Positions 36,463 to 44,015 of a DNA stretch of 64,000 nt are shown in pieces. Both the position numbers and the translations under genes were made by a program. The notes beneath the pieces are model-generated. The model ran no database searches. It was not told the DNA's origin and saw nothing but the letters and a program-made list of their open reading frames with translations. The stretch's first letter is position 1; each line of letters opens with the position of its first letter. The stretch comes from Planctomycetota bacterium. GTDB taxonomy: Bacteria > Planctomycetota > Planctomycetia > Pirellulales > Pirellulaceae. The stretch lies in NCBI GenBank assembly GCA_017303505.1, contig JAFLCP010000003.1, forward strand, positions 1-64,000, read 5' to 3'.

Positions 36463-36579
36463 AACAGCGTCACGACGGATAATGGCAGATCGTTGAGTAG
36501 TAGAGTGTCGTTGAATATGCATTGAGTATTCCATGAGTGAGCGAACTGAAATCGCTGCAACTATTTGATTGAGGGGCGA

Positions 36580-37209
36580 ATGGATATCAAGAGCTTGTTG
36601 GACAGATGCCGACAGGGAGACCAAGCAGCTGAGCAGGAGTTGGTCTGTTATTTCGTTTCGCGAGTCTCGGGTTTTGCCGAGAAACGTATCGCTCCTCTTT
36701 ACAAAAGACGCTTCGATGGGGACGACGTAGCAAACAGTGTTATGAAGTCTCTCATCTTGAGGGTTCGAAAGGGGATGATCGATTGCGAAGATGAGTGGAA
36801 ACTATGGAGTTTGTTGCTGCTGATGACTAAGCGGAAAGTGAATCGCCGCGTCCGGGAAGCTCAGCAGGCCAAGCGCGATATTCGTCGGGAGTTTCTACCA
36901 GCCGTTTCTGAGGATGTATCGGGAATTGAATTAGCAGATATCGTTGAGAATTCGGACAACGAAAGCTACGACGAAAGCGCTCTTCTTCTTGAGAAGGCGC
37001 TGCTATATATCGAAAGCAACCAAGCCAAGGCGACAGCCCCAAGTCATCGTGAAGTATTGGAGCTCACAATGCGCGGAATGCCTTACAGTGAAATTTGCGA
37101 GACACTGAAACAGCGAGTTGGCAAAGAGATAAGCTTAAAGATGATTCAACGGAAAATGCGAGACATTCGTGAAGCTGTTCTCGAAGTTGTTGCGGCCGAT
37201 TCGGAGTGA
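36580..37209 (+). CDS. ECF-type sigma-70 factor (planctomycete Sigma70_ECF group)
   Basis: 209 residues from the ATG at 36580, with GAGGGG just upstream. The N-terminus fits region 2 of the group (LLDRCRQGDQAAEQELVCYF, RFDGDDVANSVMKSLILRV with the DDV/DDVANSV helix). The C-terminus has a region-4-like helix-turn-helix (HREVLELTMRGMPYSEICET and SLKMIQRKMRDIREAVLEV). This sigma type is often found beside large Ser/Thr kinases in planctomycetes, as here 1.2 kb further on. It is convergent with an FHA-like gene whose end is only 27 bases away. Confidence 0.85.
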   Translation: MDIKSLLDRCRQGDQAAEQELVCYFVSRVSGFAEKRIAPLYKRRFDGDDVANSVMKSLILRVRKGMIDCEDEWKLWSLLLLMTKRKVNRRVREAQQAKRDIRREFLPAVSEDVSGIELADIVENSDNESYDESALLLEKALLYIESNQAKATAPSHREVLELTMRGMPYSEICETLKQRVGKEISLKMIQRKMRDIREAVLEVVAADSE

Positions 37210-38454: not shown

Positions 38455-41400
38455 GTGGGAGATCTGCCGCAATTAGTAGCTCAGCTTGACGCTGGGGCAA
38501 CAGACTTGCTTGGCTGTCTGTCCAGTCTCCCCGAGCTGTCGAAAGCTGACAAGTTTCAGCTCGTCTTGGCCGATCAAAAGAACCGTGTTCGGGCTGGCGA
38601 ACCGTCAAGTGTGGAGCATTATTTGAAGTTACTGCCGTGGCTCAGTAGCGAACCTGAACTTCAGCGACAAATCATCATTGCCGAATTTTCCCTCCGTTTG
38701 GGAACGCTTCCCACGTTACAATTATTGACCCAATTCGAAGAGAATTACGCTCGATTCGGTGAACCTTTGTTGGTTCAGTTTCGTAGCATCGCCACGCAGT
38801 GGAATCAAACACCCTTGGATCGCAACCGCTTCGATGCTCTCTGTGACCAGTTCGAAGAAGCCTGGGCTAAAACTCCCTCGCCGAGCATCGAAGCTTATTT
38901 GCAACTTGTTCCTGTGGTGTCCCACAGCCCGCTGTTGCGTGAATTGATTCTGATCGAAACCCACCATCGCCGTAAGCGTAGTGAGCCAATCAATTGGCCA
39001 GACTACCTGCATCGTTTTCCAGAGCACGTCGCCTTGCTGCATCAACTCGAAAAAGAGCAGGCTGCTTTACTCGCAGCGCCCATCAGCCAGTCGATACTAA
39101 CTGACGACCCCTCCCGTAAAACCGAATTGCCCGATCTGGCCGGCTCTTACATATCTAAGCACACAATTGGCGATTTGCGCAGTGGTCGCTATCGTCTGGA
39201 ACGTCGCTTGGGTGAAGGAGCTTTTGGCGAAGTCCGTCTCGCTCAGGATATGGAACTCAAACGCCAAGTGGCGATTAAGATTCCGCGTCGCGAAGCGTTG
39301 GCGAAGCTGGTCGATGTGGAATCATATTTGGTGGAAGCCCAGATGGTTGCCGCCTTGGATCATCCGCATATCGTGACGGTCTATGATGTGGGCCGGACGC
39401 TCGATGGTTCGGTGTATGTGGTTTCCAAATTTATCGATGGTTGCTCATTAGAAGAATGGTTTAAGACACGGTCTCTCGATTTTTCCGCGATAGCCAAGTT
39501 GCTTGAACGTATCGCCGGCGCACTCCATCATGCCCATCAGCGGCGTTTGATTCATCGAGACATTAAACCAGCCAACATCTTGATCGAAGAGGCGACAGGA
39601 ACGCCTTATGTGGCGGACTTTGGCTTGGCGATCCGTGAGGAAGATTATCTGCAAGAAGGGCGCATCGCGGGGACTCCGGCCTATATGAGTCCTGAGCAAG
39701 TGCGTGGTGAAGGACATCGCATAGATGGGCGGAGCGATCTCTTTTCGCTAGGTGTGGTAATGTACTGGGTGCTCACAGGAAGATTACCTTTCCCGGGACA
39801 AACACGTGAAGAAGTGGCGCATGAAATCACGACGCTCGAGCCTCCTGCCCCGCGTCTACTGAAGAGTGATGTTCCGGCGGAACTAGAACGCATCTGCCTC
39901 AAGTTGCTGTCGAAACGGGCCTCGGATCGTTATTCGACGGGGCAAGCGCTGGCAGAGGATTTACAGGCTTGGCTTACACCGCGGGCCCTGCAGATATCTC
40001 AGTCGAGCAGCCAGCGGATTACGCCCCGTGGTTTGCGATCGTTTACTGCCGACGACGCCAGCTTTTTTCTCAAGTTGCTCCCCGGACCGCGCAATCGCGA
40101 GGGGCTGCCGGAGAGCATTGCATTTTGGAAAACCAAAATAGAACAGCGCGACGTGGAGCAGACATTTACGGTCGGCCTGCTGTATGGGCCGAGCGGCTGT
40201 GGTAAATCGTCGTTGGTCAAAGCGGGTTTGATACCCAGTCTTTCTCCTGAGGTCATTGCGATCTATATCGAAGCGACGCCGGAGGAGACCGAAAGTCGAA
40301 TCTTGCGTCAGTTGCGAAAACGGCTTCCGGAACTGCCGAGCGAATTGGGTTTGGCGGAGTGTGCCGAGCGGATTCGTCGTTTGGATTCTCCGAAGGTGGT
40401 GCTGATCATCGATCAATTCGAGCAATGGCTTTACACGCATCGCGTCGATGTGGATGGCGATTTAGTGCGGGCGCTGCGTCAATGCGACGGAGGACAGTTG
40501 CAAGCGATCTTGATGATTCGCGACGATTTCTATTTGGCAGCTGCACGCTTGATGAACCATATCGATGTGCCGATTGTGACGGACCAGAATTTCAAGTTGG
40601 TCGACTTGTTTGATCTGGAACATGCGCGGCGGGTGCTGAGTCGTTTTGGGGAGGCGTACGATAAACTCCCATCGCAAGCGGAATCGCTTTCTGCAGAGCA
40701 AACCGCTTTTATCGATCAGGTGGTCGAAGGTTTAGCGGAAAGCAACAAAGTGGTATCGGTGCGCTTATCGCTGCTGGCCGATATGCTGAAAGGTCGCCAG
40801 TGGATTCCGGCAACGCTGGAATCGATTGGTGGCTTGGAAGGGATTGGAATCAGTTTTTTGGAAGAGACATTTGCTTCGAGTCGCGCCGATGCGCGGCATC
40901 GCGCCCATCAGTTGGCAGTGCGTGGCGTGCTCCGCGCTTTGCTGCCCGACTCGGGTACCGACATCAAGGGCGCCATGCGTTCTGAGGAGGAATTGCTGGA
41001 GGCCTCAGGTTATCTAAATCGCATGCATGATTTCAAAGATTTGCTGCGGATTTTGGATGGTGAATTGAGACTATTAACACCGACCGATCCAGAGGGAAGT
41101 TCGAAGAGTGAAGTTCGAAATGAAAAGTCGAACAACACTTCAAACTTCTCACGTCCCTCTTCTACCTTCTTTCAGCTTACTCATGACTATTTGGTCCCTT
41201 CGCTGCGCGAATGGCTGACACGCAAACAACGTGAAACCAAAAAGGGCCGCGCAGAATTGAAGCTAGCCGAACGAGCGGCGGCGTGGAGCCTCAATCCTGA
41301 AGCCAAGCAACTGCCGACCTTGATCGAATGGTTTCAAATTCGGCGCTTGACCGAACCGGCCAAGTGGAAGGCGACTGAAAAGAGGGTGATGCGCGCAGCA

Positions 41401-43632
41401 TCTCGTTTCCACATCCAGCGAATCGTTATGGCGACATCAGCTCTCGTAGTCATGGTGTTGGGGGGATGGTTTGCCTATTGGGAAGTCCGTATAGCAAATT
41501 CGGTCGACAAGCTCATAAAAGTAGCGCCTGCAGGAATTCCTGAAATTGTGGAACAAATGGATGCAAATCCGTGGGTTGCCTCGCGGTACTTATCGCCCTA
41601 TTTATCTGCAGACGCAGTGCCTCAAGCAAGGCTGCATGCCCAATTGGCGAGCGTCTCGCGAGATCCTTCGCTGGTCGACCCGCTGCTGGAAGAATTTTTC
41701 ACGGCGAAGGAGACCTATTTGCTTCCGATTCGCGAACTGCTGCGACCGGCTGCACCCAAGTTCACGGATCGGCTCGCGACTCTGCTGCGCGATGAGAAAG
41801 CGGATCGGCAGCGGCGGTTCCGCGCAGCGTTGGCGTTGGCCGCTTATGTGCCCGCGGCCGACGGAGCGTTCTGGACCGCGCCAGACTGCGCACTGGTGGC
41901 TCAGCAGTTGGTCTCCAGCAATGCGGAGTATCAACCGATTTTGCGTGAAGCCTTGCGGCCGATTCAGGACAAACTACTCAGCGACCTGGAGCGGATTTTT
42001 GGTGAGACTGCGGCAAGCGATGCGGAGCGCATGGGGGCGGCGAATGCGTTGGCCGAATATGCTGCTCAAGATCTCCCGCGACTCGCACGGTTGCTAACCG
42101 TAGCGACCCCGGCGCAGTATGCCGTAATTTATCCTCTGGTTTCAGCAGCGCCCACACCGGAGACGCTTACGCAGTTAAGTGAAGTAGCGTCGCGGTTACC
42201 GCCGGATGAACTCGGTTCGGTTGCGAGAATCGCGTATGGTCAGCAGCGGGCCAATGCGGCAGTCACGCTGCTGAAGTTGGGAGAAACGGAAAAGGTGTTA
42301 TCTGTGTTCGATTGGACGGACGATCCTGAAGCGTTGACGCAGTTTATTTTTCGGTGCAAGCCGCGTGGCATCGCGATTGACCGTTTGCTCGACCTCCTAG
42401 AAATGACATCACGCAGCACAGATCAGCCGCAGAGCGTGAGTCCGAAGTTAATGTCGCGGGCTCGCTATGCGTTGCTGCTATCGATTGGTGAATATGCTCC
42501 GAGCGAATTACCTACTGGGCGGCGTGAAGGGTTGGTGACACAACTGGCGGATTGGTATGCGAACGATCCGAGTTCTGGGGTGCATGGTGCGGCGGGATGG
42601 CTGCTGCGTCGATTGGGTGAGCAGGAGCTTGCCGATCGAGTTGACCGGACGGAGGTGCCTTATGCGCCGGGCCGGGAGTGGTATACGTTGGCGATTCAGG
42701 TGGGCCAAACTCCGCTACCGAAAGCGTTGCAGGACTCGTCGCCGGAAAGTGTTGATAAGATCGAGGCTGAAGAGCCTCCGGCACCACCTCCTCAAAAAAC
42801 ATTTTATTACACCTTTGTGGTTTTTCCGGCAGGCCAATATCCGGTTGGCTCGGTGGAGGATGAGGTAGATAGAATGCCTAATGTTGAGAGGCGGGCTACT
42901 GTGACGTTGACACGTCCCTTTGCACTGCTCGATCGGGAGGTAACATTCGAGGAGTTGATTGCCTTCTCACCGCTGTACGTGGGGTTAATGCAGCAATTTG
43001 CTGCCAAGCCAACGGATGCAGGTTTTCTTGTGGACTGGTACGATTCGGTCGATTTCTGTCGCCGGTTGGGTGGAGAGATGGACTTAGCGGAATCGGATCA
43101 GTGCTATGCGGATCCGAGAGCGCTGGACGAGAAAAAATATGAGCGTGATCTGCAAGTGAAGTGGGCGCCGAAAAACTGGCCGTTGGATCTATCGAAGCGT
43201 GGTTTTCGCTTGCCGACGGAGTCAGAATGGGAGGTAGCAGCCCGCAGCGGTTCTCGAACGGCGTACGGCTATGGTAGCGACGTGGGGCTGTTGGATCGGT
43301 TTGGCTGGTTTTTGGAGAATAGTGTCAAGAAGGTGCATGGTGCTCGGGAGCTGAGGCCGAGCGTTCGAGGCTTGTTTGATCTACATGGAAACTTGGCTGA
43401 GTGGACCCATGATTGGGATGGAGCGTTTCAAATATCAGGGGTAACAGATCCAATCGGCTCTAGTACTGGCGCGTACCGCGTGTACCGCGGCGGCAGTCGG
43501 GCCCTCGAAGCAGCGCGCTGCCGGACGGCGTACCGCTCACTCGCTCCCCCGTCGTTCCGCGACACGAACCGCGGCTTCCGCCTTGCCCTAGTTCCTTCGG
43601 GTCCAGCGGGTACGGGTCCGGCGGAGAAGTGA
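38455..43632 (+). CDS. Ser/Thr kinase - STAND NTPase - TM - FGE-like fusion protein (putative DGR target)
   Basis: 1725 residues from a GTG start. Domains in order: two copies of a helical N-terminal unit (about 40-200); a Ser/Thr kinase (244-505) with GEGAFGEV, VAIKIPRR, HRDIKPANIL, DFGLA and TPAYMSPEQ, so it looks active; a STAND-type NTPase with Walker A GPSGCGKSS (about 578) and Walker B VVLIIDQFEQW (about 648); a membrane helix (about 992-1010); a helical HEAT-like region (1030-1440); and an FGE-sulfatase/C-type-lectin-fold domain (1448-1718) with FRLPTESEWEVAARSG, GLFDLHGNLAEW and YRGGS. The catalytic cysteines of true FGE are not evident. The last 40 codons have a G+C content and NNC codon pattern typical of DGR variable regions. 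The expected topology is kinase inside, lectin-fold sensor outside. Confidence 0.92.
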   Translation: MGDLPQLVAQLDAGATDLLGCLSSLPELSKADKFQLVLADQKNRVRAGEPSSVEHYLKLLPWLSSEPELQRQIIIAEFSLRLGTLPTLQLLTQFEENYARFGEPLLVQFRSIATQWNQTPLDRNRFDALCDQFEEAWAKTPSPSIEAYLQLVPVVSHSPLLRELILIETHHRRKRSEPINWPDYLHRFPEHVALLHQLEKEQAALLAAPISQSILTDDPSRKTELPDLAGSYISKHTIGDLRSGRYRLERRLGEGAFGEVRLAQDMELKRQVAIKIPRREALAKLVDVESYLVEAQMVAALDHPHIVTVYDVGRTLDGSVYVVSKFIDGCSLEEWFKTRSLDFSAIAKLLERIAGALHHAHQRRLIHRDIKPANILIEEATGTPYVADFGLAIREEDYLQEGRIAGTPAYMSPEQVRGEGHRIDGRSDLFSLGVVMYWVLTGRLPFPGQTREEVAHEITTLEPPAPRLLKSDVPAELERICLKLLSKRASDRYSTGQALAEDLQAWLTPRALQISQSSSQRITPRGLRSFTADDASFFLKLLPGPRNREGLPESIAFWKTKIEQRDVEQTFTVGLLYGPSGCGKSSLVKAGLIPSLSPEVIAIYIEATPEETESRILRQLRKRLPELPSELGLAECAERIRRLDSPKVVLIIDQFEQWLYTHRVDVDGDLVRALRQCDGGQLQAILMIRDDFYLAAARLMNHIDVPIVTDQNFKLVDLFDLEHARRVLSRFGEAYDKLPSQAESLSAEQTAFIDQVVEGLAESNKVVSVRLSLLADMLKGRQWIPATLESIGGLEGIGISFLEETFASSRADARHRAHQLAVRGVLRALLPDSGTDIKGAMRSEEELLEASGYLNRMHDFKDLLRILDGELRLLTPTDPEGSSKSEVRNEKSNNTSNFSRPSSTFFQLTHDYLVPSLREWLTRKQRETKKGRAELKLAERAAAWSLNPEAKQLPTLIEWFQIRRLTEPAKWKATEKRVMRAASRFHIQRIVMATSALVVMVLGGWFAYWEVRIANSVDKLIKVAPAGIPEIVEQMDANPWVASRYLSPYLSADAVPQARLHAQLASVSRDPSLVDPLLEEFFTAKETYLLPIRELLRPAAPKFTDRLATLLRDEKADRQRRFRAALALAAYVPAADGAFWTAPDCALVAQQLVSSNAEYQPILREALRPIQDKLLSDLERIFGETAASDAERMGAANALAEYAAQDLPRLARLLTVATPAQYAVIYPLVSAAPTPETLTQLSEVASRLPPDELGSVARIAYGQQRANAAVTLLKLGETEKVLSVFDWTDDPEALTQFIFRCKPRGIAIDRLLDLLEMTSRSTDQPQSVSPKLMSRARYALLLSIGEYAPSELPTGRREGLVTQLADWYANDPSSGVHGAAGWLLRRLGEQELADRVDRTEVPYAPGREWYTLAIQVGQTPLPKALQDSSPESVDKIEAEEPPAPPPQKTFYYTFVVFPAGQYPVGSVEDEVDRMPNVERRATVTLTRPFALLDREVTFEELIAFSPLYVGLMQQFAAKPTDAGFLVDWYDSVDFCRRLGGEMDLAESDQCYADPRALDEKKYERDLQVKWAPKNWPLDLSKRGFRLPTESEWEVAARSGSRTAYGYGSDVGLLDRFGWFLENSVKKVHGARELRPSVRGLFDLHGNLAEWTHDWDGAFQISGVTDPIGSSTGAYRVYRGGSRALEAARCRTAYRSLAPPSFRDTNRGFRLALVPSGPAGTGPAEK
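41097..41165. repeat. Repeat-derived in-frame insert inside the kinase gene
   Basis: GAAGTTCGAAGAGTGAAGTT and related units encode the odd peptide SSKSEVRNEKSNNTSNFSR between the STAND-associated region and the TM part. The segment is near-palindromic (GAAGTTCGAA versus TTCAAACTTC). The 13-mer GAAGAGTGAAGTT (41103-41115) recurs in reverse complement at 44014-44026 just after the four-helix-bundle gene. It is a dispersed repeat that has entered coding sequence in frame. Confidence 0.5.
43471..43587 (+). other. Candidate DGR variable region (VR) at the 3' end of the kinase-FGE gene
   Basis: By my count 88 of the 120 bases at 43471-43590 are G or C, well above the flanks. The codons at the surface positions of the lectin fold nearly all end in C (TAC, GCC, CTC, CGC, TTC, GAC, AAC), as expected when AAC codons of a template repeat are diversified by adenine mutagenesis. 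The segment ends with the conserved GGCTTCCGCCTT (GFRL), where the initiation-of-mutagenic-homing sequence normally lies. A matching template repeat was not found in the window, so the call rests on composition and fold. Confidence 0.5.
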
Positions 43633-43700: not shown

Positions 43701-44015
43701 GTGAAACTCTGTCAAGTTCTTGATGAACGGCCGGGTGTTGGGCGGACACTCGCACGGCAATTGTTTCGGTCTGGTACGTCGCTCGGCGCGAATGTTGAAG
43801 AGGCACAAGCTGGACAAAGCCGCGCAGAATTTTTATCGAAATACTCTATAGCGTTTAAAGAGGCCCGCGAGGCGCATTACTGGCTGCGGTTGATCGCAGA
43901 TTGCGAGATCTTAACTCCCATTCGACTCGCTGAAATCACGCAAGAATGCGACGAACTTGTCGCGATCATCAAGTCAACTCGCAAACCGTCATCACTTCCA
44001 ACTTCTCCCTTCTAA
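43701..44015 (+). CDS. Four-helix-bundle protein (S23/Avd-like), 5' end possibly frameshifted
   Basis: 104 residues from a GTG start. It matches the four-helix-bundle family (TIGR02436) that includes the DGR accessory protein bAvd: VGRTLARQLFRSGTSLGANV, EEAQAGQSRAEFLSKYSIAF, KEAREAHYWLRLIADCEIL. The conserved first helix (IVERTFRFSVRIVKLCQVL) lies upstream of the GTG in the same frame but without a start codon. The ATG at 43649 would supply it if one A were removed from the run at 43652-43655 (ATGAAAACTG), so a single-base frameshift is likely. The stop lies inside the dispersed polypyrimidine repeat. Position right after a VR-bearing gene is the classic Avd position; free-standing members of the family also exist. 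Confidence 0.72.
   Translation: MKLCQVLDERPGVGRTLARQLFRSGTSLGANVEEAQAGQSRAEFLSKYSIAFKEAREAHYWLRLIADCEILTPIRLAEITQECDELVAIIKSTRKPSSLPTSPF

Follow-up and report, generated by a model that had tools for sequence, protein, structure and literature searches.

The gene discussed here encodes a large signalling kinase whose DNA changes in composition near its 3' end. This raises the question of whether the tip of the protein was written by a diversity-generating retroelement (DGR), a system that randomises the binding tip of a protein, and whether such an element still acts on it. The initial annotation had proposed both. The window, meaning the whole 64-kb stretch of DNA that was analysed, contains the following features, in which VR is a DGR variable region and TR a template repeat.

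38455..43632, + strand: kinase-STAND-FGE gene, 1725 aa (ORF call; Pkinase, nSTAND1 and FGE-sulfatase in Pfam)
39190..39957, + strand: protein kinase domain, aa 246-501 (Pfam PF00069, Pkinase, 8.9e-46)
40030..41292, + strand: nSTAND1 NTPase domain, aa 526-946 (Pfam PF20703, 4.6e-19)
43030..43587, + strand: FGE-sulfatase / C-type-lectin domain (Pfam FGE-sulfatase, 7.9e-23)
43468..43587, + strand: DGR-type VR, 40 codons, probably orphaned (TR/VR comparison, GC, orthologue)
43573..43600, + strand: putative initiation-of-mutagenic-homing (IMH)-like 3' end of the VR, GGCTTCCGCCTTGCCCTAGTTCC... (VR and TR 3' ends compared)

The 1725-aa protein includes, in this order, a Ser/Thr kinase, an nSTAND1 NTPase, a long middle region with no assigned domain and a C-terminal FGE/C-type-lectin domain. 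According to the Pfam and PDB matches, the VR segment lies at the C-terminus of this C-type-lectin-fold domain. The PDB entry closest to the FGE domain by sequence was the DGR variable protein TvpA (2y3c; phmmer, 1.1e-25), which was also ranked first by Foldseek (3.7e-13). The TvpA match leans mainly on sequence, because the structure model of the domain has moderate confidence (mean pLDDT of 68.6, and low within the variable segment). In addition, the predicted fold is the general FGE fold, and the motif RGG..CRSA.R..GFR.A is common to FGE C-termini; both points would also suit an ordinary FGE tail.

Upstream of the kinase gene there is an ECF sigma factor gene (36565-37209, + strand, PF07638), and between the two lies a 300-aa ORF on the opposite strand without Pfam match. 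Directly downstream, a gene at 43701-44015 (+ strand) encodes a four-helix-bundle protein (PF05635 / TIGR02436, 23S rRNA IVP family), whose fold is akin to that of the DGR accessory Avd. An assignment as Avd is not favoured: the DGRs of relatives have an HRDC accessory, and the gene matches the general TIGR02436 family.

The G+C content of the segment as first noted (43471-43587) was 74.4%, against 54.9% for the gene and 50.1% for the window. There were 3 equally GC-rich stretches among the 21,295 117-nt stretches of the 64 kb, and each of them overlapped the segment. The best frame of the segment is 43468-43587 (120 nt). The GC contents at codon positions 1, 2 and 3 were 0.69, 0.69 and 0.85 in the segment and 0.63, 0.45 and 0.57 in the gene. 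When synonymous codons were redrawn from the rest of the gene, 63.2 +/- 2.7% was expected for 43468-43587, and none of 200,000 draws reached the observed 75%. Thus, amino-acid composition is not the sole cause of the jump. The initial annotation had placed this rise over the last 40 codons of the gene; the rise itself was confirmed as the highest in the 64 kb, but 14 further codons follow the segment. The conserved GFRL block with which the segment was said to close is present, as the segment ends in GFRLA.

FGE genes with tails of high GC3 and NNC codons, similar to the window segment at the DNA level, were found in several relatives. For instance, the single contig of G019 has two such tails (L113:4688-4807 and L114:5619-5738) that are 3.4 Mb apart; most of their differences fall on positions 1 and 2 of NNC codons, and outside these codons they are nearly identical. 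A TR was deduced from these tails by placing AAC at the variable codons and was searched for in 241 genomes of the family, where it matched complete DGRs in other genera. In these DGRs, the TR adjoins a reverse transcriptase (RT) with IGSLTSQ-like and YMDD motifs, and the VRs sit in FGE genes. Cognate VR/TR pairs showed 9-19 adenine differences and mostly 0-1 differences at other bases (6 for the G129v2 VR), while the TRs of different genera differed from each other at 6-26 non-adenine positions. Furthermore, the HRDC accessory was found in the DGR-bearing relatives searched, where it adjoins the RT. The cassettes of relatives are often on small contigs (3-7 kb).

The FGE tips targeted by the complete DGRs of relatives (L207, L208, L210, L204, L206, L214) belong to a kinase (the kinase-FGE protein of the intact G062 DGR) and to TIR-NACHT, SIR2-NACHT, DUF4062-NACHT and caspase proteins, apparently an immune-like sensor repertoire. 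Searches for a DGR-type RT found none in several relatives that also carry VR-like tails, for example G010, G040 and G019, the last with its two tails. Thus, members of this family may often have lost the DGR and retained a chosen sensor.

Other elements were met in the relatives. An Asn-rich TR-like sequence, SSNRGIRGGNWNNNSNN..., is common to two genera (L155 of G035, at about 6550, and L200 of G205), and in G035 it adjoins a DGR-type RT. L154 (G024:C295, at about 2873) is a genuine DGR with 20 adenine mismatches and 1 other mismatch; its TR is different and AT-richer, and it was set aside. An RT fragment near a VR-like gene in G010 (contig C126) matched RVT_1 at 64-166 only, with no TR in the 20-kb stretch, and was read as a group II-type remnant rather than as a DGR.

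The TR nearest to the window segment is that of a relative, G128, and not one of its own genome. The two differ at 22 of the 31 adenines and at 15 of the 89 other bases (p = 7e-8), and this share of mutated adenines is within the range of the VRs in cassette-bearing relatives. The Fisher test is not decisive alone, because variation in the loops of the lectin fold is common to all FGE proteins, and a small p was also reached by some FGE tails that do not belong to the DGR group; paralogue, codon and orthologue controls were therefore added. Ordinary FGE paralogues encoded in this genome had 43-50 non-adenine mismatches to the TRs (about half), with differences enriched at adenines weakly or not at all (p 0.05-0.3), a terminal GC3 of 0.33-0.42 and no GC3 jump.

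Among the codons that face AAN of the nearest TR, 11 of 14 end in C in the segment. Thus, the NNC codons claimed for the variable positions are there, in a pattern eroded by TCA, GCT and ACG. The segment has CGC ahead of GFR, where the G128/G106b/G125-type TRs have AAC, and it has CRTA in common with the G106b TR. Where the amino acid is the same as in that TR, 19 of 22 codons are identical (8.9 expected), which goes beyond composition. On these DNA comparisons, we assign the window segment to the VR/TR lineage of the relatives' DGRs.

The boundaries of the segment also coincide with the VR/TR homology of the complete DGRs, which begins within about 5 nt of the GC boundary in the window and stops soon past the GFR..A codons. 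At the 3' end, AGCT or a similar sequence in the TR corresponds in most of the cognate VRs to AGTT or AGTC. The window segment has the VR-type AGTTCC, while most TRs are AGCTCC-like. For example, CTAGTTCC in the window is the form found in the active G106 VR, and the G106 TR has CTAGCTCC. This VR-type end is a putative IMH, distinct from the TR version. The VR/TR difference resembles the IMH/IMH* difference of the Bordetella phage DGR, which prevents the TR from serving as a target (PMC4891356). A Bordetella-like downstream hairpin of at least 6 bp was not found in this genome, and such hairpins were inconsistent among active VRs.

Orthologues of the kinase were found in G040, which belongs to another family (48% identity), and in G017 (45%). 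No further member of the genus was seen in the genomes searched. In the genome collection, the closest named match to the query region came from a Roseimaritima MAG (31% identity), which points to planctomycetes. Compared with G040, third codon positions were 0.36-0.37 identical along the gene, where they look saturated, and 0.72 identical inside the VR; the excess was greater than base composition explains. Meanwhile, third-position identity with G017 in the segment was 0.28, and the tail of G017 is not VR-like and lacks the GC jump. Judged from the sequences, the simplest account would be that related templates wrote the tails of both this gene and G040 after the genes diverged; the two tails may also have a common older origin under constraint. 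In addition, CTC at codon 25 is common to the G040 tail and the window segment and is absent from all 13 TRs.

Taken with the relatives' TRs, the paralogue controls, the orthologue comparison and the sequence resembling a 3' homing site, the proposal that the segment is built like a DGR variable region holds. The proposal of a DGR still at work on the kinase is not supported. The genome is a draft of 7.76 Mb in 295 contigs and is 99.2% complete. Within it, an adenine-tolerant 120-nt pattern allowing at most 3 other mismatches matched the VR itself only, blastn of the segment gave the self-match only, and the consensus TR gave no match at E <= 1e-12, so that the TR search suggested by the initial annotation ended with nothing besides the VR. 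No local TR was present within the window at 36-52 kb. The RT search, which had also been suggested, found no DGR-type enzyme in the draft: with two DGR RTs as queries, the sole match was the only RT of the genome, a group II intron RT/maturase on contig C65 (TIGR04416, 351 bits, cut-off 300). The draft also had no match to the HRDC accessory that goes with the DGRs of relatives. The RT, TR and HRDC queries that were negative here did find their targets in positive-control relatives. A narrow test, in which the TR was sought in viral contigs with one exact degenerate pattern, gave no match.

Drift was counted over the 78 columns that have no adenine in any of the 13 TRs. The window segment has eight private bases, present in none of these TRs, and this is the most of any VR examined; the counts were 0-4 for TRs, 0-1 for active VRs (one has 4) and 0-4 for other orphans. 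The private changes include third-position C/G to A or T, and TGG to CGG (Trp to Arg), by which an otherwise invariant Trp is lost. Such third-position changes and the loss of the Trp would be expected once rewriting had stopped. A diverged, unseen TR could explain part of the private changes. Meanwhile, the 15 mismatches to a foreign TR are no proof of decay alone, because the TRs of different genera differ that widely.

Our preferred reading, which we hold with good though not full confidence, is that the 120-nt segment is a former VR of an HRDC-type DGR, written from a TR onto the tip of a kinase-STAND-FGE protein, that the cassette was lost or was never permanent in the lineage, and that the tip, fixed from then on, has been drifting. 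It is carried by the homology to the VR/TR lineage, the concentration of differences at adenines, the boundaries and VR-type 3' end, the similarity to the orthologue tail in the segment only, and an assembly without TR, DGR-type RT or HRDC. An HRDC-type DGR, present in several genera of the family, would have been the source of the segment, and mutagenic retrohoming from a GC-rich TR with AAC codons would have placed it in the lectin-fold sensor tip. The cassette (TR, RT and HRDC gene) would then have been lost, if it was ever permanent, and ordinary substitution would have led to drift in the fixed tip. The order of writing and loss is the conditional part of this account. By analogy, the FGE tip may bind a ligand and relay it via the STAND ATPase, which would couple it to signalling by the kinase. 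Ligand sensing by the DGR-diversified FGE tips of related proteins has been proposed, not proven (PMC10907252, PMC7517822). The segment is thus probably an orphaned VR, frozen on a kinase-STAND-FGE sensor.

Other explanations account for part of the same evidence. A resident, active DGR might still rewrite the tip, with its cassette missing from the assembly, as could happen in a draft when the cassettes of relatives often lie on such short contigs; the share of mutated adenines and the intact VR-type 3' end would fit. However, the completeness of the genome, the negative searches with queries that succeed in relatives, and the eight private changes make this unlikely. A broader scenario, also unlikely, has transient mobile DGRs rewriting kinase-STAND-FGE tips in trans and across lineages, with the tip kept as a fixed 'memory' of earlier diversification and the tips of this gene and G040 received independently after the genes diverged. 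We consider it improbable that the VR-bearing tail was acquired from another bacterium by ordinary recombination or horizontal transfer instead of by retrohoming here. The absence of DGR machinery and the CTC codon in common with G040 would agree with such an event, but a recombination tract is not expected to end at the boundaries of VR/TR homology. An ordinary FGE tail that is GC-rich through its Arg/Gly/Ala-rich motif and codon bias is very hard to believe. It would have the common C-terminal motif and general fold mentioned above, but this reading is already contradicted by the redraw, paralogue and orthologue controls, since codon redraws never attain the observed GC and neither the FGE genes of the same genome nor the G017 orthologue show such a jump.

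If the segment is indeed a frozen VR, DGR-written tips could be recognised from their DNA signature alone in genomes free of DGRs, and such targets would escape DGR surveys in which the RT or TR is the starting point. In addition, private non-adenine changes could provide a yardstick for the time since a tip froze. It can now be tested whether DGRs are used as a search device for a time, after which the winning sensors are kept.

HRDC-type DGRs with FGE/C-type-lectin targets are known in Treponema denticola, where isolates without RT or TR are reported to keep target genes whose VRs depart from the TRs chiefly at adenines (PMC4891356). The present case is similar in the HRDC accessory adjoining the RT in relatives, the FGE-fold targets, the best PDB match to TvpA of T. 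denticola, and a target left without RT or TR. However, the target here is a kinase-STAND protein, the host is from another phylum, and the closest TRs come from other genera, not from other strains. In cyanobacteria, variable Ser/Thr kinase-CLec proteins are diversified by DGRs, and some targets are remote from the cassette (PMC7517822). Our protein is likewise a kinase with a C-terminal CLec domain as its diversified part. Unlike the cyanobacterial proteins, which have a TR in the same genome, it has none that was found, and between its kinase and FGE there is a STAND domain followed by a long middle region. Furthermore, DGR-diversified STAND NTPase-FGE proteins of multicellular bacteria have been proposed as sensors of conflict systems (PMC10907252; PMC7159879). 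They also combine an nSTAND1 or NACHT NTPase with a VR in a C-terminal FGE domain, and kinases are among the targets, but their DGRs are mostly complete, whereas the machinery is missing here. Thus, kinase and STAND targets of DGRs were already known, as were leftover targets without RT or TR in T. denticola (PMC4891356). New in this study is a kinase-STAND protein with a probably orphaned VR, for which the template lineage was traced to other genera and the drift was measured.
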